A stretch of DNA of 45,314 nt from an uncultured Bacteroidia bacterium (GTDB taxonomy: Bacteria; Bacteroidota; Bacteroidia; JANWVE01): positions 1-45,314 of the forward strand of contig CALIZB010000020.1 in NCBI GenBank assembly GCA_938028625.1. Direction: 5' to 3'. The notes beneath the pieces were generated by a model. The model saw nothing but the letters and a program-made list of their open reading frames with translations. It made no database searches and was not told the origin of the DNA. Shown here piece by piece: positions 35,725-45,314 of the stretch. Numbering within the stretch: position 1 is the stretch's first letter; each line of letters starts with the position of its first letter. The position numbers were made by a program, and so were the translations under genes.

Positions 35725-37125
35725 TTAGTTTCTATTCTCATTTAGTAATTTCTCTATAGTTTGATTTATGATATCATAGGGATTTTTTTCCTCTTCGCTT
35801 ATATTTATTTTTTGCTTTAACCATTTTACTATTTCTTGTGTTTCATAGACACTTTTTATCTCTTCCTCGTCAGGTGCTTCAAAACTATGTGCGCCTATAC
35901 TTTTATTTCGCATCTGTTGTAAGCAATATGCTGTTTCTATACACTGGTAATCCTCCTTTAAGTATGAACCTTCAATAGATTGAAAATAAAATAATAATTC
36001 TTTTAATAAGTGTGAAGATGGGTCTTTACTTTTATATCTCAAATCCTTTTCATCTAACCATTTTTTAAGTTCGGGTTTAGTTTTAAGATAATTCTCAAAA
36101 ACTTTTTCCCAATTATTTGAAGTATATTCAATTTGAGTAATTTTAACGACTTCTTTGACAAGAATTTCCTCTATTAACCTAAAAAAACGAACTAAAAAAT
36201 CTACATAATTTTTTTGTCTATATTTTATATCTACATTCCAAAAAAGTTCTTGTAATTTTAGCTGACTACTCTCCTTTTCAATAATAGTATTCAATTCTCT
36301 CAATGCATTATTTCTTATGTTATGGTTGTTCACTTTGGAAAGTGCGTGTCGTGCTTTTTCAAAGTTAAACATCATTCTATAGTGTGCATACTGAGCAAAA
36401 TACTTTACATCATCAGAAACAAATTCTAATTCATTTATACCTTCATACAGATAGCCTTTAATCATTTTTCTAACCGTGTTATTATCATTACTTTGTAAAA
36501 ATTGCCGAATAGACTGAATAGGAGAAGCTGTACCTGTATCTTCATTTACATGTAATTCGGACTGAATTTTCGTACCTAACTTCTGTATGGCATTAAAACG
36601 TATGGACGTGTTAATAGCATCAATACCACCAACTAAATGCAAATAGATATTTTCATAATCATTAAGCATATTTAAGTTTTTGTTTTTTTGAAATACTCCA
36701 TGAATATACTTATACATTTTATCCAAATAAACTACTTCATCGCTTGTTATTTTGAATATCTCTATTTTGGATACATTTCCGTAGTTCTGGGCAATATATT
36801 TTTTGATGATTTCTGCATAATAATAGGTATCTGTATCTCGTGGAGTCTCTTGGTCGGTGGCTATAAGTAGCAGATAATCTATATTTTTAATCTCATGCTG
36901 TAAGTATTTTAGTGTGGGTTCTATGATAGGAATTTTAATATGTTTTTTTAGAGTATCATAGTTTTGGTTAATAAATTCACCTGCCTTTCGGGCCATGAGT
37001 GTGTTATTTTTAGGATTGATGTACTCTTGATATTTTTCTGGAAGTTTTTCTTTGAGTATAGACAAATCTACTTGTACATCGCGGGTGCCTACCGTAACAA
37101 TTAATGCGTTTTTTTTATTCTGCAT
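35725..37125 (-). CDS. csm6: Csm6 (CARF-HEPN cyclic-oligoadenylate-activated ribonuclease)
   Basis: Ancillary RNase of the type III system, switched on by cyclic oligoadenylate made by Cas10. The 466-residue protein starts with a CARF-like Rossmann domain (ALIVTVGTRDVQ, LLIATDQETPRDTDT, LHLVGGIDAINTSIRF, which takes the place of the TGGTP loop). The C-terminal HEPN domain carries the catalytic R-x6-H motif RNKSIGAH (R406, H413). The ring size it responds to (cA4 or cA6) cannot be read from sequence. It is the last gene of the operon, 14 bases after csm5. Confidence 0.87.
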   Translation of the reverse strand: MQNKKNALIVTVGTRDVQVDLSILKEKLPEKYQEYINPKNNTLMARKAGEFINQNYDTLKKHIKIPIIEPTLKYLQHEIKNIDYLLLIATDQETPRDTDTYYYAEIIKKYIAQNYGNVSKIEIFKITSDEVVYLDKMYKYIHGVFQKNKNLNMLNDYENIYLHLVGGIDAINTSIRFNAIQKLGTKIQSELHVNEDTGTASPIQSIRQFLQSNDNNTVRKMIKGYLYEGINELEFVSDDVKYFAQYAHYRMMFNFEKARHALSKVNNHNIRNNALRELNTIIEKESSQLKLQELFWNVDIKYRQKNYVDFLVRFFRLIEEILVKEVVKITQIEYTSNNWEKVFENYLKTKPELKKWLDEKDLRYKSKDPSSHLLKELLFYFQSIEGSYLKEDYQCIETAYCLQQMRNKSIGAHSFEAPDEEEIKSVYETQEIVKWLKQKINISEEEKNPYDIINQTIEKLLNENRN

Positions 37126-37139
37126 AGTACTATGGTTTA

Positions 37140-38279
37140 TTAGTTAAAAATAAGTTTGATAAAACCTAATGGTGTACCATCAGGCAAAAAACGGCGAGTT
37201 TTAGGTAAAGGAAATTTGTCATATTTTTCACCTCTTGGTCTTACTTTAATCTTGAACTCATTAAATTCACTCTGATTCATAACTTTCTCATGCCCTTGCC
37301 AATCACCCGTCATAAAATTAAAACCTATATGTTTTCCTAAACGAAGTACACATTCATTATTTTTACATTGTTCTACATCATTTAAAAGTTCCATAAGACG
37401 TTCTTTGTAATCATACAAATTATCATCATCTTGTTTTCGGATAAAATCTATTTCTTTTTTTAACATATTTTTTAGATGTGTGTTAAGCGTTTGGGTAAAA
37501 GTTTGTACATCAGCAATAAGCGTATGATTTTTACCTGTATAATCTATAATTTCAGATTGTATAGACTTATGTAATGACTTTTTCACGGTTTCATTCCATA
37601 AGTTTATACGAGTATTTGCAGACGCTCCTGTTGGAATAACTTCTGTCCATTGAGATAAATCATCTCTTTCTTCCCATCCCTCGCCGCGCATATTATAGGA
37701 ACACACCTTGCAGATTTTTGTATTTTGAAAAACCACATCACCTACTTGTAAAAATCGTAAAAAGTCTTTGTTTTGTGCATCTTTCTCAGGATTATCAGCA
37801 AAATAACTCTTTATCAGAGTAGTATCATTATAATGATTGTCATTTTTTCGGTTAAAACTTACCCTTGCCAAATCAGGGTTTTTAGTAATCATTTGTGCAA
37901 GTAAAGCAGTACGAATAGCACCTTTAAGTGAAGAACCAGGAATATAAGGTTTTAGCAATCCATTATGAATATGTTCATATACAAAAGTTTTATCTCCAAT
38001 ACTTCCTTCTACATAAGTTATTCTTTTTGCAATATCTTGGGGTTTTATGTCATTCTTTATGCTTCTCAAAAGTGATAAAAGGTCTTGTCGGTTTTGAATG
38101 TTATTCATCCATTTTTCAAAATGAGCATCTGTAACAATCGTATAGATTTTATTTTCATCAAGTATAGCCAAAGGTTTGTTATTCAAGTTAGAGAAGAATA
38201 TAAAATCTATATTTTTAGTAAGTTTTCTTTCACTTCCTACGTGTACAGCAGTTAAGGTTTTGATAGTAACATTACTCAT
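37140..38279 (-). CDS. csm5: Csm5, type III-A RAMP subunit
   Basis: Caps the 3' end of crRNA in the Csm complex. The 379-residue protein has the RAMP glycine-rich segment PYIPGSSLKGAIRTALL and the C-terminal RFLPDGTPLGFIKL. N-terminus VTIKTLTAVHVGS matches the first strand of Csm5. A cysteine pair CKVC sits in the middle and may bind zinc. 14 bases separate it from csm4 and from csm6. Confidence 0.9.
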   Translation of the reverse strand: MSNVTIKTLTAVHVGSERKLTKNIDFIFFSNLNNKPLAILDENKIYTIVTDAHFEKWMNNIQNRQDLLSLLRSIKNDIKPQDIAKRITYVEGSIGDKTFVYEHIHNGLLKPYIPGSSLKGAIRTALLAQMITKNPDLARVSFNRKNDNHYNDTTLIKSYFADNPEKDAQNKDFLRFLQVGDVVFQNTKICKVCSYNMRGEGWEERDDLSQWTEVIPTGASANTRINLWNETVKKSLHKSIQSEIIDYTGKNHTLIADVQTFTQTLNTHLKNMLKKEIDFIRKQDDDNLYDYKERLMELLNDVEQCKNNECVLRLGKHIGFNFMTGDWQGHEKVMNQSEFNEFKIKVRPRGEKYDKFPLPKTRRFLPDGTPLGFIKLIFN

Positions 38280-38293
38280 AGTACAAATTAAGG

Positions 38294-39271
38294 TTATTCA
38301 GTTTTTTTGACAGGAATAAAAATAGGTCTACCTTCGCGGTATACAGGATGTTGGATATTTTGGGGGGCAAGGTCAGCAAGTTTTCCTTTCAAGGTTTGCG
38401 CGTGAAATACAGAACCTTCCTGAAACATATACAAAGATTTTTTTCGGTAATTCATTTTAGTTACATCTTGTGGGTTAGCTAAATATCCCCCACGTTTAAT
38501 GAGTTCATAAGACGATGTTAATGTATTTATCTGTTCTATGTCATTGCGTGTAGGGCAGTATAAAGACAAATTCAATAAATATTCAGAGGTTTGAGGGACA
38601 CGTAAAGTCATCTGTGTTTTTTCTAATACAGGTTCAAACTGTCCATTTCCTATGGTTTTATAGCTTCCCACTCCATTCTGACCTAAAAGATAAAATGCGG
38701 GCATAAGTTTTTGGTGTAAAAAGTCTGTTGTACACTGTACTAATACATATAAACCTGCGTCTTTTTCAAAATAAATGCGTTCAAAATAAAAAGGGTCTGA
38801 GTCTTGTCCATAATTGATTTTTACACGGCTTTGTTCTTCTCGGAAGTATATTTTAGGGTTATTTTGGGCATCAAACTGTAATGAAAGAAATTTAGCATTT
38901 GTAGTAAAGTTATTTAAGGAAATATCCGCATTTTCGTTATGAATACACTTTTCAAATAGCGTTTTATCTAACCATTGCAGTTTTTTAAGTTTCTTGATAT
39001 TAGATGGATTTTGTTCTTTGATATTCAAAGAAAGTTTGAGAAAAGGTTTCGGAAAGAATCTGGTTTCTTTATAGTACGGAAAAGCAGAGGATAAACTAAA
39101 TGAGTCAAAAAAATTAGAGCTAAAATCACCAAAAAGTTGTGTATAACAAACAAATAAAGCACTTTTAAGGGTATCAGAGTGTAAAAAATCCTGAGAATCG
39201 GAATAATCTTCGCTACCTTTAGAAATATGTAAAGGTGAAATAAACTGTAATCTGATTACATGAAACTGCAT
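38294..39271 (-). CDS. csm4: Csm4, type III-A RAMP subunit (crRNA 5' end)
   Basis: Binds the 5' tag of crRNA and contacts Cas10. The 325-residue protein begins MQFHVIRLQFISPLHISKG, contains SDTLKSALFVCY, and near the C-terminal half LLGQNGVGSYKTIGNGQF, a Gly-rich loop typical of Csm4. ATG 39271 is preferred to an upstream TTG (39280) that is adjacent to the csm3 stop. 9 bases after csm3. Confidence 0.9.
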   Translation of the reverse strand: MQFHVIRLQFISPLHISKGSEDYSDSQDFLHSDTLKSALFVCYTQLFGDFSSNFFDSFSLSSAFPYYKETRFFPKPFLKLSLNIKEQNPSNIKKLKKLQWLDKTLFEKCIHNENADISLNNFTTNAKFLSLQFDAQNNPKIYFREEQSRVKINYGQDSDPFYFERIYFEKDAGLYVLVQCTTDFLHQKLMPAFYLLGQNGVGSYKTIGNGQFEPVLEKTQMTLRVPQTSEYLLNLSLYCPTRNDIEQINTLTSSYELIKRGGYLANPQDVTKMNYRKKSLYMFQEGSVFHAQTLKGKLADLAPQNIQHPVYREGRPIFIPVKKTE

Positions 39272-39280
39272 AGTTATCAA

Positions 39281-40015
39281 TTATTTACTTCGGAATATTT
39301 CAGGAATAGAATAGAGTGTATATTCTTTTTCTTGTTTTTCAGCAGATTTGTAGTACTCATTAGTTCGTTCAGTTACGGAGGATAAAGTAAATTTTATTTG
39401 TCCATAACCTCTTGAACCTGAACCGCCAAGATAATCATCTTGAATAAGTTGTAAGCCATCAAATATAGCTTTTACCAGTTCTTTTTCTTGGTTTTCATCA
39501 TGGCTATTCATGATATTAAGTACGATATTGAGTTCAAATTCTGCACCTGCGGGTACGCGCTCCATAATACGCGGGTTAGCTTTAGACGTAATTCTGTCAA
39601 TAGTTACTTCAGTTTTTACTTCTGCATATGGTACATCTGTATTTTTGAATAGTTCTTCTGCACTTAATAAAGACGCATCTCTAAAAATAACATAAGATGG
39701 GTGCTGGTTTTCGTCATTAGTAGATGTACCAAACAAACGGCATGAAAGAGAATTAGGATTATCAGAGACGCCGTATTGAATTTGTTTACTGGGGTCGCGT
39801 CCAATAGTTCCATCGCGAAGTTCTATCAAAGCGCGCATTTTGCCTTTAAGCGAACTACCTGGAATGTATGGCTTATTATCTATGGGATTACGGATAATGA
39901 TATTATCCAAGCCCCCGATAGACATGGCCGAAGAGCTACCTCCTATACGAAGCCCCGTGAGTAATTTAATTTTACCTCTGAATAAAATTTTTTTCTTTAA
40001 TCCTAATGTACTCAT
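39281..40015 (-). CDS. csm3: Csm3, backbone and target-RNA nuclease subunit
   Basis: Repeating backbone of the Csm complex that cuts bound target RNA every six bases. The 244-residue protein (ATG 40015) shows TGLRIGGSSS, the catalytic Asp in GGLDN (D37, equivalent to D33 of the Streptococcus thermophilus protein), PYIPGSSLKGKMRALIE, and GGSGSRGYGQIKF. All features needed for RNase activity are present. The longer frame from 40048 would run into csm2 and is not needed. 19 bases after csm2. Confidence 0.94.
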   Translation of the reverse strand: MSTLGLKKKILFRGKIKLLTGLRIGGSSSAMSIGGLDNIIIRNPIDNKPYIPGSSLKGKMRALIELRDGTIGRDPSKQIQYGVSDNPNSLSCRLFGTSTNDENQHPSYVIFRDASLLSAEELFKNTDVPYAEVKTEVTIDRITSKANPRIMERVPAGAEFELNIVLNIMNSHDENQEKELVKAIFDGLQLIQDDYLGGSGSRGYGQIKFTLSSVTERTNEYYKSAEKQEKEYTLYSIPEIFRSK

Positions 40016-40034
40016 AGTTTTATGTAATTTAAAG

Positions 40035-40496
40035 TTATTTACCTCCATGAACCTTATGATACGCTAGTATAGCTTCTAAAAAATCAATAAAATTCTTAAA
40101 CCGTCTAGTGAATTCAGCCGTATCATTCTGAACTTCTTTGACTGCTTTATGCGCCTCTAAAATAACTTTTTCAAATAAATCTGCACCTTTATTACCTTGG
40201 CGCTTTACTGCATAAGAAAGTTTAGGTTGTAATAAAAGAAAAGCTGTTTTTTCTTTCTCTATACCTTTCATTTCAATTCTTCGTACTTCACCAAAAAAGT
40301 TTCTTATTTGGTTAGTAGTAAATTTTTGATCAGCTATAGCTTCACCAAATTTATCAGCAAAATCAATAGCATCTTTACCGTTAAATTTTTCTCCAAGTCC
40401 TTTGGTTATCCAGTCTTTGGTGAATTGCTCTAACCAATGTTTAGTATTATCCTCTTTGTTTTTTTGGTCAAAATTCTTTTTATTAAATGTATTCAT
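40035..40496 (-). CDS. csm2: Csm2, small subunit of the type III-A complex
   Basis: Small alpha-helical subunit that lines the target-RNA channel. The 153-residue protein carries the family pattern TTNQIRNFFGEVRRIEM and LLLQPKLSYAVKR. N-terminus is Lys/Asn-rich and probably disordered. Its first 14 bases overlap the end of cas10, so translation is coupled. Confidence 0.92.
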   Translation of the reverse strand: MNTFNKKNFDQKNKEDNTKHWLEQFTKDWITKGLGEKFNGKDAIDFADKFGEAIADQKFTTNQIRNFFGEVRRIEMKGIEKEKTAFLLLQPKLSYAVKRQGNKGADLFEKVILEAHKAVKEVQNDTAEFTRRFKNFIDFLEAILAYHKVHGGK

Positions 40497-42837
40497 AGTT
40501 TTTTGTATTTGAAGGTTTAAAGTTCACATCATTTTTAAGTTCCAATTCTGCCCAACGAGCAGATAAGTTAAGCAATTCAAGAAAACTATATGAACTACTT
40601 ATTTTTTTGCCTTTGTATGTATTTGTCAGAATGCTATTTTTCAAATCGGTAATAAAAATTTTAACAGAGTCATCTTTTTTACGGTCTAATGCTCTTTTGA
40701 AGTCATAAGACATAATCCATCTCCAGCTTTCATTTTCTTTACTTTTACGTTGTATAATAGACATTTGATAAAAAGTCTGAATTTTATGTAAAAAGCCTTT
40801 GGGAAGTTTTTCTTGTTTAAGCCATTGTGAAAGAGTATCTTTTAGTTCTTTAACCAAAGGAAACTCATGTTCCCAATTTAGGGGTATATCTAATATACAA
40901 ATAGCATTTTTTTGTTGTCCATTAACCTTGTGATTTTTAGCTTTTTCTTCGGCTTCTCCTGCGGTATCTGCGGCTTTGAGTATAGGATATTTAGCAGTTA
41001 CAATAGACACGCCCGCAGATAAAGTCAATTTAGGATTATGACAAGCCCATTTTTTGAATTCCGTTCTTACAGCTTCGGCAAATTCAATTACTTTATCCCA
41101 TTTTCCCACAATAAATAAATCATCGCCACCTGCATACACAATATAAATCCATTTTTCAAAATCAGATTTACTTTTCCATATTGTGTTGATATATCCTTTG
41201 AAAAAATAATCCAAAGAACGGCTTAGAGCACTATATCTCGCAAAAGTTGCATATTTACCTAATCCTTGTGTAAAAGTATTACCAAGATTATCCACGTCCA
41301 TACGAAGTATGCCTAAACGCTTAAATGAGTCCTTTTCATCTCCTGCTAAATCATTAAAGTTTTTAGGTACGTGCCAATTATCCGACCTAACAGGTGCTTG
41401 ATTGCCCCCATAAAAAGCAAAAGAATATACAACATCCGCAGGACTATTCCATTTAGTTTTGTTAAAATCATCAGGATTATTGAACTGAATAAGCGTAAAA
41501 GGAACACCCTCAGGAACAGTAGGTAATTCATCAAAAAAGTACCAATGAATGCCTAAATTCATAGGATTTTGATAGTGTAACGGTGTTTTTTCTTTCCACT
41601 TTATCGCCTGCGTAGATTGTACAATATACCTTGTCTGACGAAGGTATTTTCCTAAATCTATCTGTTGTTTAGTGAGCTCTAATACATATTTTTTTTGATA
41701 GTCAATTTCTTTTACGGGCTGTTGTAATATATCCTCTTCTGTAATTTCGTATACTCTATTGTTGTTAAGGTCTTTTGTGCTAATTTCTTGATTAGTAATT
41801 ACATCTTTTTTTAATAATCCTCCTTGTTCTGTTTCTTCAAAAAAGTATGTGTATTCTGTAACCAATTTAGACACATATTTTAAGCCTTTTTTACGATTTA
41901 GTTTATCAATTAGCTCTGTCCATTTTTGGCTGAGTGCATTATTTTGTCCTGAAATCTCTGTATAAGAAAGTTCTGTAAATGCAATGTTAAGTAAAAGTTG
42001 AGTTCCAAACTCCCTAAAAATGGCGTCAGAAACGAGTTTTTCTACTTCATTTATCGTTTTTTTAGTGTTTTCTGTATTGGGTACAAGAAGATAAAAACCT
42101 CCTCCTGAGGCATATACTATATTTGTATGAAAAAGTTTTAATTCATACAATAGCTTTTCTATAACAGAGTCTACAAGAAGTTGTAAGAAAAATGAGCGTC
42201 CTTTTAAGTTTTTTGTAGCAAATTTACTGATAATGTTATAGATATACTTTTGAATACCTGATATACTACCTCCTAAAAAGAGTACAGGCTTATCACTTTC
42301 TTGAACTTCATTTTTTTGATATTCTGTAACATAGTCATATAAACATGTTGCTATGGCGGCTGTCATACGAGAGTGGTCATACAAGGACACGTCAGAAAGT
42401 TCAGGTATGCCACAAGGTATAGTAACTGTATATTTATGCAACAAATTAGTGCAATTTTCAATAAATAAAGCGAGATTTTCGCGAGGTAATAGATTAGCTT
42501 TTTCAAAAAACTCTTGTATAAGTTTTTCAAAATGAGTATAATTAGACTGTTTATTGTTGTTTTTTGGAAAAAAACTCTGTTGTAAGGTTATTTTTACAGG
42601 TTCAAAAGTATGTTCTGACTTCTGTGCATTGAGTTCTCCTAATACAGAGTGCAGATAATACTTTGGGATACTATCTTGGGGGGCTTGTCCGCTTGATGAC
42701 CATAGTTCTGCTTTTTGTATTAGATTTTGGTACAGAGTATCTTTTACAGGTGTGTAACCATACAGATTAAAGACACTTGTGTAAGTTTTAGCAATGCGAT
42801 GCAATAATGCCGACAAAATAAATTCTTCTCTTTTCAT
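40483..42837 (-). CDS. cas10: Cas10/Csm1, signalling subunit with degraded HD motif
   Basis: Large subunit of the Csm complex; makes cyclic oligoadenylate when target RNA is bound. The 784-residue protein has the first Palm loop ASGGGFYLL (243-251) and the second Palm with the cyclase motif YAGGDDLF (568-575; GGDD at 570-573) and DVDNLG (514-519). In the N-terminal HD domain the expected HD pair of LLHDIGK reads HR (LLHRIAK, residues 11-17), while the later LYDHS (152-156) is kept. No CxxC pairs are present where Cas10 proteins often have a zinc-binding finger (about 330-400). The cyclase should be active and DNA cutting is probably lost. Starts one base after the cas6 stop. Confidence 0.93.
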   Translation of the reverse strand: MKREEFILSALLHRIAKTYTSVFNLYGYTPVKDTLYQNLIQKAELWSSSGQAPQDSIPKYYLHSVLGELNAQKSEHTFEPVKITLQQSFFPKNNNKQSNYTHFEKLIQEFFEKANLLPRENLALFIENCTNLLHKYTVTIPCGIPELSDVSLYDHSRMTAAIATCLYDYVTEYQKNEVQESDKPVLFLGGSISGIQKYIYNIISKFATKNLKGRSFFLQLLVDSVIEKLLYELKLFHTNIVYASGGGFYLLVPNTENTKKTINEVEKLVSDAIFREFGTQLLLNIAFTELSYTEISGQNNALSQKWTELIDKLNRKKGLKYVSKLVTEYTYFFEETEQGGLLKKDVITNQEISTKDLNNNRVYEITEEDILQQPVKEIDYQKKYVLELTKQQIDLGKYLRQTRYIVQSTQAIKWKEKTPLHYQNPMNLGIHWYFFDELPTVPEGVPFTLIQFNNPDDFNKTKWNSPADVVYSFAFYGGNQAPVRSDNWHVPKNFNDLAGDEKDSFKRLGILRMDVDNLGNTFTQGLGKYATFARYSALSRSLDYFFKGYINTIWKSKSDFEKWIYIVYAGGDDLFIVGKWDKVIEFAEAVRTEFKKWACHNPKLTLSAGVSIVTAKYPILKAADTAGEAEEKAKNHKVNGQQKNAICILDIPLNWEHEFPLVKELKDTLSQWLKQEKLPKGFLHKIQTFYQMSIIQRKSKENESWRWIMSYDFKRALDRKKDDSVKIFITDLKNSILTNTYKGKKISSSYSFLELLNLSARWAELELKNDVNFKPSNTKNYEYI

Positions 42838-42838
42838 G

Positions 42839-43582
42839 TTAGTTTTGCGAAGAGATATAAATAGTTTCTGGGTATGTGTTGTATTTTTCTTCTGATAAGT
42901 TTTCCAAAGATGTTTTTTTTACTCTTTTAACCATACCAAAACCTACGCTACTTGCTTTACCTAATCCTATGTAATCCGGCAGGGAGATATTAGTTTCAAA
43001 AGTAACATCAAAAGTAAGAAAATCAATTTTCTTGTATTTTATCCACTTCTGAGCATGAATGCGATGTATACCTACAAAAACACGGTCATAGATGTTACAC
43101 TGTAAGTGTTGTATAAAAGCCATGATGTGAGCTGTCATTAATTTTTCAAGCATGGCTACTTTTTCTCTAAGCAATTCAGTATTTTGAAACTTTTGATAGT
43201 TTTCAGAATTGAGTGCCATCCAATTATAGATTTTGTAGACAAAAACTTTGTCCCATGCTTGACATACATGATGAAATAAACTAACAGACTCTACATTTAA
43301 TTGAAAACTATGGTCATACACTTGCACAGTTTGATTTGGACTTGCAATTAAATTTAGTACTATATCTGCACCTCCCTCTAATGCAATTATATACAGTTTA
43401 TTTTGATATACTTTGTGTTGAATAAGCGGATAGTGATAAAGAAGTTTTTTGTTGTCAAGATGGTGGTGTTGCCATACAGACTTTTCAGGATATAAATTTG
43501 ATAATGCCGCTCTGAATGCAGGAATTTCATTCAATTTAAGCGAATTGTCAAACTTTAAGCGTGCACACCTTAGTTTTTTCAT
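42839..43582 (-). CDS. cas6: Cas6, CRISPR RNA-processing endonuclease
   Basis: Cuts the array transcript within the repeats. The 247-residue protein has two ferredoxin-like halves; the C-terminal loop YIGLGKASSVGFGMVKR is the glycine-rich Cas6 motif, and the segment LLYHYPLIQHKVYQNKLYI matches Bacteroidota Cas6 proteins. The catalytic residues cannot be fixed from sequence, though His residues are abundant (WQHHHL). It is the first gene of the cas operon; no clear -7 element could be assigned in the 125 bases upstream. Confidence 0.85.
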   Translation of the reverse strand: MKKLRCARLKFDNSLKLNEIPAFRAALSNLYPEKSVWQHHHLDNKKLLYHYPLIQHKVYQNKLYIIALEGGADIVLNLIASPNQTVQVYDHSFQLNVESVSLFHHVCQAWDKVFVYKIYNWMALNSENYQKFQNTELLREKVAMLEKLMTAHIMAFIQHLQCNIYDRVFVGIHRIHAQKWIKYKKIDFLTFDVTFETNISLPDYIGLGKASSVGFGMVKRVKKTSLENLSEEKYNTYPETIYISSQN

Positions 43583-43707: not shown

Positions 43708-44484
43708 CTAAAAACAAAATCCTATACGTGCCGTAGCAAACTTGTAATACGCTCTTCCTTCAATATACCGAATATAATTTATGAGTAATATTGTGTAGTA
43801 TTCTTGCCATTTATATCCTACATTGAATAAAAACGCCGTGTTTTTAGAAATAAATGTCTTTACTCCTAACTGAACGTGGAATATAGCTCCGTTATCACTA
43901 AGCTCATTTATATTAAAAGCCTTTCCAGCATTCAATATAAGACTTGGAGTTATCTCACCTTTGAAAGGATTTAATCGGACGTCCGCCATTATGGGAATAA
44001 GATTAGTTTTCTGATAAACATCCATTCCCAAGCCAAGACCCATAGAAAAATGCTGATTAAATTGGTATCCATTTGTCCAGCGAAAAGCAAAAGCTCTATC
44101 TCCATTATTTGTGTAGTAGTTATTTAACTTTACTTTACCTACACCATACGAATAACCTGCTTCTAATATACTTGTATAACCACTTTTTTTGTATTTATTT
44201 TCTTTTTCTTTCTGTGTTGTTTGTGTAGGATTATCAGTATTATTTGTGCTTACAAATTCCTTAGTAATTTTTTCAATTTCGTCATACTTAAAGAAGAACA
44301 CATTTCTATCCTTGGTTTGAATTTTAATACTTTGATTAGGGACCTGTTCAATAATAATTCCTCTGATAATACTGCCATTTTTTAGATAAACGACTTCTTC
44401 TATGGTTTGAGAATACGAAACAGAGCAAAATAACAGCAATACGAATAAAGTGAGCAATGAATAATGAAAAGTTATTATTTTCAT
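43708..44484 (-). CDS. outer-membrane beta-barrel protein with N-terminal YLKNGS domain
   Basis: A 258-residue protein. Signal peptide ends VSYSQ; a small all-beta domain (VVYLKNGSIIRGIIIEQVPN, FFKYDEIEKITKE) is followed by a Thr/Asn/Lys-rich linker and an eight-strand-like barrel that ends in Phe (ARIGFCF). Such proteins are common in Bacteroidota and not known to be linked to CRISPR. It sits between the array and the cas operon on the same strand and has its own promoter, so it is probably unrelated to them in function. Confidence 0.75.
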   Translation of the reverse strand: MKIITFHYSLLTLFVLLLFCSVSYSQTIEEVVYLKNGSIIRGIIIEQVPNQSIKIQTKDRNVFFFKYDEIEKITKEFVSTNNTDNPTQTTQKEKENKYKKSGYTSILEAGYSYGVGKVKLNNYYTNNGDRAFAFRWTNGYQFNQHFSMGLGLGMDVYQKTNLIPIMADVRLNPFKGEITPSLILNAGKAFNINELSDNGAIFHVQLGVKTFISKNTAFLFNVGYKWQEYYTILLINYIRYIEGRAYYKFATARIGFCF

Positions 44485-44580: not shown

Positions 44581-44616
44581 AAAAAACCCATAAGGTTTTG
44601 AGAACCTTACAGGTTT
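44581..44616 (-). terminator. terminator at the leader-distal end of the CRISPR array
   Basis: Inner stem TAAGGTT (44591-44597) with AACCTTA (44603-44609), outer stem AAACC (44584-44588) with GGTTT (44612-44616), then T6 on the minus strand (44586-44581). It ends transcripts coming leftward from the array and its right edge overlaps the most decayed repeat. Confidence 0.75.
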
Positions 44617-45249
44617 AGAAGAACCATAATGGACGGTGTTTACACCCGGATTTAGGATTTTCGATTTCGGATTTAGTTGTAATCCCCTACAAATGAACAT
44701 TACATACATCAGTTCGGTGGCTGAGCGTAGCCGAAGCCACCGATGTTCTAATCCCCCTACGAATGGACGGTGTTTACACCTACGTCTAGATTATCAAGTA
44801 CAGGTTGGTAGGTTGTAATCCCCCTACAAATGGACGGTGTTTACACCCCCGCAAAATTAGTGCGCGTTGGGTCGCGGTTGTAATCCCCCTACAAATGGAC
44901 GGTGTTTACACCCCTGTAAAGAAGGGGTTTATTTATTTATAAGTTGTAAGTTGTAATCCCCCTACAAATGGACGGTGTTTACACCTGTCCACATTGCTGT
45001 TATTCGAAAGACGCCGTTGTAATCCCCCTACAAATGGACGGTGTTTACACCCCTTGTTCAGTGGTTTAACGGTCAAATATCCGTTGTAATCCCCCTACAA
45101 ATGGACGGTGTTTACACCAAAGAATCGTAAAACAAGAAAAAAACGTAAGTTGTAATCCCCCTACAAATGGACGGTGTTTACACCTTAACTCATTTTTAGA
45201 AAAAAAATGGGTTGTTGTAATCCCCCTACGAATGGACGGTGTTTACACC
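44611..45249 (-). CRISPR. CRISPR array of the type III-A system
   Basis: Eight well-kept 36-base repeats start at 44745, 44812, 44877, 44950, 45016, 45083, 45149 and 45214; on the plus strand they begin GTTGTAAT and end TTTACACC. The first reads GTTCTAAT, and 44745 and 45214 share a CTACGAAT variant. The seven spacers between them are 31, 29, 37, 30, 31, 30 and 29 bases. Two decayed repeats precede them (44611-44646, only its last 19 bases intact; 44676-44710, one C short and its last half eroded). Decay on the left, an AT-rich stretch on the right and a minus-strand terminator at 44581-44616 indicate transcription on the minus strand from the right, giving crRNA tags ATTACAAC. Confidence 0.95.
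44711..44744. repeat. REP-like palindrome in the position of a spacer
   Basis: Between the second decayed repeat and the first good one lies a 34-base unit whose core is CGGTGGCT (44715-44722) and AAGCCACC with G (44734-44742) around GAGCGTAGCCG. Words of this kind (GGTGGCTGAGCGTAGCCGAA) are known chromosomal palindromes in Bacteroidota. Its length fits a spacer exactly. Confidence 0.6.
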
Positions 45250-45314
45250 ATACAAGAAATTAAGTATTTTTAATAAATTGTATTTCAATAAGTTAACTTG
45301 CAAAAATTGCAAAA
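45250..45314 (-). promoter_or_regulatory. presumed CRISPR leader (partial)
   Basis: AT-rich non-coding sequence at the intact end of the array, cut by the window edge. It contains GTTAAC (45292-45297) and two copies of the palindrome TTGCAA (45298-45303 and 45307-45312) separated by AAA. No promoter could be fixed. Confidence 0.5.

Follow-up and report, generated by a model that had tools for sequence, protein, structure and literature searches.

Near the right end of the window (the whole stretch of DNA analysed, 45,314 nt, contig C20), the genome of an uncultured Bacteroidia bacterium contains a CRISPR array with 36-nt repeats (44629-45249) in which one spacer slot is occupied by an almost wholly self-complementary sequence of 34 nt, hereafter H. 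How does a palindrome come to stand in the place of a spacer: was it captured by the CRISPR system, did it arrive by a mobility of its own, or does it belong to the array as a functional part? Many bacteria contain REP-like palindromes, and the initial annotation of this DNA had already seen in H either a REP-like element captured as a spacer or one that had inserted into the array or replaced a spacer there.

A palindrome in a spacer slot of a type III-A array

The unit H (AGTTCGGTGGCTGAGCGTAGCCGAAGCCACCGAT) matches its first description as a 34-base, almost entirely hairpin-forming unit between a decayed and a well-preserved repeat (Table 1). A perfect 9-bp stem (TCGGTGGCT/AGCCACCGA) closes a 12-nt loop, and the predicted RNA fold of H reaches -17.3 kcal/mol. 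No other hairpin in the window combines arms of at least 9 with at least 6 G+C per arm (mean of 0.05 in 40 dinucleotide shuffles), whereas by arm length alone H is less exceptional, the window holding seven hairpins with arms of at least 9 versus 3.35 in the shuffles. The 35-nt repeat on its outer side is decayed, and that on its inner side keeps 34 of the 36 consensus bases. With its 34 nt, H falls outside the usual range of the other spacers, which measure 28-31 nt in 23 of 24 cases and 37 nt in one, although spacer length follows no strict rule. The 37-nt spacer (44913-44949) closes with GTTGTAA, the bases with which the repeat begins, and so resembles a 30-nt spacer with a 7-nt duplication of the repeat start.

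We take the right side of the array as the leader side for two reasons: all 64 bases after its last repeat recur beside the C163 array, and the repeats become decayed toward the left. H is therefore leader-distal, in agreement with the "decayed end" of the initial annotation, but it is not the last unit: the array runs on outward beyond the decayed repeat with a 29-nt spacer (hereafter X) and a truncated repeat. A second small palindrome of another type, AT-rich (TAAGGTT-5-AACCTTA, 44591-44609), lies just beyond this end.

The cas neighbourhood of the array is of subtype III-A, with cas6b, cas10/csm1, csm2, csm3, csm4, csm5, and a Csx1/Csm6-type gene. Between the array and cas6, an open reading frame on the operon's strand (43708-44484) has a beta-barrel match under the Pfam cut-off and none in the defence library. 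At Rfam gathering scores, the window yields one tRNA and nothing else. The assembly is a draft (2.9 Mb, 170 contigs) in which several arrays are broken at contig ends; the repeat is common to four contigs (C20, C100, C45, and C163) with two versions of the leader (C20/C163 versus C45), and Cas1 matches are found on two others (C145 and C111). Two genomes of the same genus (G001 and G002) have no match to the array and hence provide no empty site for comparison.

Table 1. Features of the CRISPR array and the adjacent cas operon in the window
Feature	Position	Strand	Remarks
Csx1/Csm6-type CARF-HEPN nuclease	35725..37125	-	under Pfam cut-off; matched in defence library
csm5	37140..38279	-	Pfam: RAMP superfamily
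csm4	38294..39280	-	
csm3	39281..40048	-	Pfam: RAMP superfamily
csm2	40035..40496	-	
cas10/csm1, subtype III-A	40483..42837	-	
cas6 (Cas6b)	42839..43582	-	
Truncated outermost repeat	44629..44646	+	repeat-family comparison
Outer spacer X, 29 nt	44647..44675	+	matches dispersed AT-rich sequence in genomes of same class
Decayed CRISPR repeat outside H	44676..44710	+	counterpart beside inner C100 copy differs at 2/35 bases
H in spacer slot	44711..44744		34 nt; inner 30-nt palindrome 44714-44743
Inner repeat beside H	44745..44780	+	34/36 consensus; G4>C change common to both C100 copies
Seven more repeats and intervening spacers	44812..45249	+	36-nt repeat GTTGTAATCCCCCTACAAATGGACGGTGTTTACACC
Leader side	45250..45314	-	45251-45314 identical, 64/64 bases, to flank of C163 array

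Copies of the palindrome within the genome

A search of the assembly for further copies of the H core, as the initial annotation had proposed, returned three in all (20-nt core, at most two mismatches), every one in an array slot and none outside CRISPR arrays. Besides that of the window, two lie on contig C100 and likewise occupy spacer slots at an array end, in the order decayed repeat, H1, repeat, spacer X, decayed repeat, H2, repeat, and further spacers. Repeats in the register of the array are found on both sides of all three copies. The outermost decayed repeat, to the left of the outer C100 copy, still matches in register at 18 of 36 bases and at 15 of the 22 of its tail, against a background maximum of 13/22 over 8,600 positions. 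The distances between repeat starts across the three H copies are 69, 69, and ~70, those of the other units being 64-67 and, in one case, 73. The ends of C20 and C100 are identical in X, with two changes among the 35 bases of the decayed repeat, three among the 34 of the palindrome, and one among the 36 of the inner repeat, which indicates a common origin of both array ends. The changes in the palindrome are one stem pair (C-G in C20, T-A in both C100 copies) and one loop base, and since the former affects both members of the pair, the stem remains paired in the C100 copies.

A search of the genome at E 0.001 gave no further copy of spacer X, common to the C20 and C100 ends. X matches a dispersed AT-rich sequence at 29/29 positions in one genome (G230) and at 24-28/29 in several other genomes of the class, although X is of low complexity and part of this resemblance may thus be due to convergence. 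By eye, some of the X-like sequences in other genomes adjoin tRNA-like sequence. As for H, the absence of any copy outside the arrays means that nothing else in the assembly would be targeted at that similarity, so the earlier idea of a self-targeting spacer finds no support here, unless ancestral copies since lost were meant.

A dispersed palindrome family linked to a GIY-YIG nuclease

H possesses the conserved TGAG...CGAA core with a paired but variable stem that characterizes a family of palindromes (consensus CGGTGGYTGAGCGNAGNCGAARCCACCG) in other genomes. A search of GTDB genomes for the 28-mer CGGTGGYTGAGCGNAGCCGAARCCACCG (one position fixed) gave 36 stretches, most of them from Bacteroidota, the other labels being a single Balneolia, a single Spirochaetaceae, a single cyanobacterium, and two stretches from one Calditrichaeota MAG. 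Own genome counted, the 26-mer GGTGGYTGAGCGNAGNCGAARCCACC is present in 10 of 395 genomes of the class, and the 20-nt core (at most one mismatch) in 26 of 119 genomes, with up to 95 copies in one of them; a reversed control pattern was found in none. In 70 distinct copies from the fetched loci, collected with a pattern that leaves one stem pair free, this pair is T-A in 49, C-G in 19, T-G in one, and C-A in one, so that pairing is conserved and sequence is not. The fetched loci of other genomes contain no exact copy of the 34-nt unit or of its inner 30 nt. The view of H as a REP-like chromosomal palindrome thus gains from these copies in other genomes, but not from this assembly, where none lies outside arrays. 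The genome richest in the core (G019, 2.0 Mb) has one GIY-YIG match and one weak Y1_Tnp match.

An origin in a phage or plasmid, which the initial annotation had set against a chromosomal one in case the genome held no other copies, is only half in keeping with the data: there is indeed no copy outside arrays, but the array region has no match among phage records at E 1 or among plasmids at E 0.1. H with three flanking bases on each side gives weak partial matches in 22 plasmid records (best E 0.1), and the 28-mer is found in one viral contig (L092). The CRISPR repeat has no exact match in viral contigs.

From sequence comparison, a physical and evolutionary link between the palindrome and a small single-domain GIY-YIG nuclease is well supported. 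An open reading frame similar to the small GIY-YIG protein first found in a Saprospiraceae MAG (L064, see below) is encoded in 16 of the 36 GTDB stretches, within 300 bp of the palindrome in 15 of them and at 1.5 kb in one more, and all ten frames tested (seven from GTDB stretches and three from our G-numbered genomes) exceed the PF01541 cut-off. The background of 460 PF01541 matches in 119 genomes, or ~1.14 per Mb if 3.4 Mb per genome are assumed and long frames such as UvrC included, corresponds to ~0.1% per palindrome at 300 bp. The binomial probability of the observed proximity would be ~2e-35 for independent loci, which these are not, as they are phylogenetically related and several of the 36 stretches come from one genome. 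Palindrome-bearing genomes have on average 5.1 PF01541 matches versus 3.5 in the others (Mann-Whitney p 0.006). In one of them (G067), the nuclease domain (60140-60358) is placed between two palindromes (60041-60060 and 60363-60382).

The same association is seen from the side of the nuclease. A TGAG...CGAA hairpin is present in 19 of 44 loci centred on the best-scoring, and thus not random, PF01541 places (43 distinct domains), as compared with a mean of 0.26 and a maximum of 2 in shuffles and with 1 of 20 control loci of our choosing. The nuclease-centred sample leaves out G030:C23, G067:C5, and G037:C2, all with palindromes and already in the data set, as well as G072:C83, which adjoins a contig end. 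When all loci are taken together, the hairpin lies within 500 bp of 33 among 58 distinct nuclease domains; it flanks 16 of them on both sides, with matching inner stem and orientation in 11 cases. The difference between stems follows that between nuclease proteins in the nuclease-centred loci (Mantel r 0.45, p 0.0012, n=19); a test over all loci gives r 0.67 but is to some extent circular, since the palindrome itself had served to select the loci behind 14 of its 33 rows, a problem that the n=19 test does not share. Nine nucleases of the GST type all have a hairpin, never with a TCA stem, and among the 34 others ten have one, always with TCA or TTA stems, in a split that was defined after inspecting the list and that leaves the 24 hairpin-less nucleases outside the comparison. 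Such co-variation is what a palindrome-recognising nuclease would leave behind. Against the link stand the 21 of 36 stretches without a nuclease frame within 300 bp (some of which end early at contig ends), the 24 of 43 domains of the nuclease-centred sample without such a hairpin within 500 bp, and G019, with its 95 core copies and a single GIY-YIG match. Tandem GIY-YIG genes also occur, ten being listed at 457-bp steps in G108:C9:906073-910392 and three at 345-bp steps in G095:C2:234372-235265.

The genome that carries H has only two GIY-YIG matches, a domain in a 619-aa open frame of UvrC size on contig C86 and a fragment on contig C135, and no GIY-YIG gene was seen next to the array. Of the 78 positions of the profile, the fragment covers 30; in the alignment its resemblance to the family stops after ~30 residues, and it starts with MKGYMYILKCNDGSYYTGST, which makes it a broken nuclease gene of the GST type, the type matching H. 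A nuclease of the kind that accompanies H was thus once present in this lineage or reached it. In positions 693-733 of the locus L127 on the same contig, GGTCGTTGAG...TGAAACGACC form a related-looking hairpin with a longer loop, 89 bases before the broken fragment (ATG at 822) and, by eye, at the 3' end of a restriction-modification-like gene.

A palindrome at the end of an unrelated array

In the Saprospiraceae MAG L064, the last repeat of an array with an unrelated repeat sequence breaks off at base 30 and leads, through GAA, into the same palindrome. Here the palindrome abuts the repeat and fills no slot, so something besides capture can place it at array ends. Self-comparison of this locus (847-909 with 1057-1119, 98.4%; 877-1023 with 1641-1785, 98.0%; 1087-1119 with 1641-1673, 100%) reveals in 847-1785 the succession repeat-H-B beside repeat-H-nuclease-H-B, with 33-bp identical copies flanking the nuclease gene. 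The two parts look like the empty and filled versions of one site, which would have arisen through the entry of a cassette into H or through recombinational loss between two H copies; the case comes from one MAG, so an assembly error is possible.

L064 is also the only CRISPR array found among the 36 GTDB stretches. Our test for such arrays, exact words repeated at least three times at 40-100 bases, misses those with mismatched repeats or with two repeats only. Beyond the array loci of the genome itself, it flagged L017, L035, L038, L064, L067, L071, L104, L105, L130, L149, L164, L172, and L182, and of the flagged loci that were read L064 alone contains an array. L067, L071, L038, and L105 were rejected on reading as tandem repeats of other kinds, and in L017, L035, L104, L130, L149, and L172 the repeated word is that of the palindrome itself.

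Origin of the palindrome in the array

The geometry of the slot, the restriction of H to array ends in the assembly, the nuclease linkage, the co-variation of stems and nucleases, and the broken matching nuclease gene are the observations from which an explanation has to start. Taking them jointly, we consider that H most likely is a dispersed, nuclease-linked palindrome captured long ago from such an element as a type III-A spacer, a reading to which we assign a probability of roughly 55%; the capture of H as an old spacer is, by itself, moderately supported. In the scenario that we propose, the nuclease would recognise the palindrome and spread or maintain palindrome-nuclease-palindrome cassettes, leaving lone palindromes behind; a palindrome cut from such an element would have entered the III-A array as a spacer, presumably through Cas1-Cas2; and the array end would later have been duplicated while the flanking repeats decayed. 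Capture accounts for the spacing, for the repeats on both sides, and for the company of X, itself resembling dispersed sequence. What speaks against it is that the palindrome sits almost exactly in the middle of the slot, as would be expected more readily after insertion or replacement than after a random cut, and that H, at 34 nt, departs from the 28-31 nt of 23 of the 24 other spacers. In addition, the three copies carry both common alleles of the family (C-G once and T-A twice), so that one capture followed by duplication requires paired mutations or gene conversion.

These same points favour a palindrome that moved in by its own mobility and displaced a spacer, in which case H would be a landed element and no CRISPR memory. 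Plain insertion can be set aside, since it would add ~30 bp whereas the repeat-start distances across H (69, 69, and ~70) are close to the 64-67 of the array, and the choice once left between capture and insertion or replacement is thereby reduced to capture and replacement of a spacer. Replacement would explain a unit that is almost exactly the palindrome, with its length and its near-perfect centring, as well as the presence of both alleles, and it has a parallel in L064, where the same palindrome is attached to a repeat truncated at base 30 and identical 33-bp copies flank the nuclease gene. Yet the element would have to remove a spacer of similar length and respect the edges of both repeats, and we regard this course of events as possible but doubtful. 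That selection instead keeps the palindrome as a component of the array end, for instance as a terminator, a processing signal, or a transcript boundary, would agree with the position of H between array and cas operon, on the operon's strand, with the pairing kept in three copies despite one differing stem pair, and with the presence of H at both recovered leader-distal ends, though these share their descent. It is an improbable explanation, as inspection of both strands found no T-run after the hairpin such as an intrinsic terminator would have, and of 37 loci (the GTDB stretches and the viral contig) the word test, once the flagged L067 and L071 had been read, left 36 without a CRISPR-like array, so that elsewhere the palindrome is not tied to CRISPR.

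A further candidate is a REP element of the kind linked to a RAYT (a transposase of the IS200/IS605 type). H shares with REPs a short, imperfect palindrome that is dispersed and reaches many copies in some genomes, and yet a RAYT origin is very improbable. A RAYT/IS200 partner was rejected for want of any association, Y1_Tnp being present in 20 of 26 palindrome-bearing versus 70 of 93 other genomes and having no match in the genome of H. The GTAG tag expected at the end of a REP palindrome is absent, the outer sequence being GGTG (TCGGTGG) and GTAG appearing only in the loop when the variable N is T. Nor is the copy number high in this genome, with three copies, the other sampled genomes having at most 95 of the core.

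Relation to known systems

Like the REPtrons formed by REPs and RAYTs, the family described here consists of tagged, dispersed palindromes of 20-40 bp and a linked gene that may handle them and may be flanked by them. Unlike in REPtrons, the partner is a GIY-YIG nuclease, the core is TGAG...CGAA, the outer sequence is GGTG (GTCA with the other nuclease type), and there is no association with Y1_Tnp. GIY-YIG homing endonucleases have a single GIY-YIG domain, as does the nuclease of the palindromes, and the empty and filled site side by side in L064 is also reminiscent of them, but here the presumed target, which the nuclease would cut, is a dispersed palindrome on both sides of the gene. As to III-A spacers, H resembles them in lying between repeats of an array beside csm genes and cas6, and differs in being self-complementary, 34 nt long, similar to chromosomal palindromes, and without a phage match. 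The main text of PMC3733652 describes GTAG- and CGTC-tagged palindromes together with RAYTs, puts forward a tyrosine transposase as the partner of the GTAG-tagged REPs, and does not contain the string "giy". In titles and the beginnings of abstracts of the open-licence literature, we found no description of the pairing of a GIY-YIG nuclease with a palindrome. If the mechanism is borne out, the system would be a variant of the REP-like ones with a categorically different partner enzyme.

We tentatively suggest that the palindromes and nucleases make up a mainly Bacteroidota selfish family, in which a single-domain GIY-YIG nuclease recognises its tagged palindrome and spreads it, in the way proposed for RAYTs and REPs although the enzyme is unrelated, and which CRISPR arrays meet often enough to hold its members. 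A second, unrelated class of enzyme, with types that match palindrome types, would offer a partner, open to direct testing, for a repeat widespread in Bacteroidota. Should the H slot be transcribed and processed, its self-complementary III-A guide could pair with transcripts from either strand of any member of the family, but it would also fold on itself. The CRISPR copies would record contact with such elements, which raises the question of whether immune systems acquire spacers from palindromes, and the array studied here suggests the record of a little-known selfish element.
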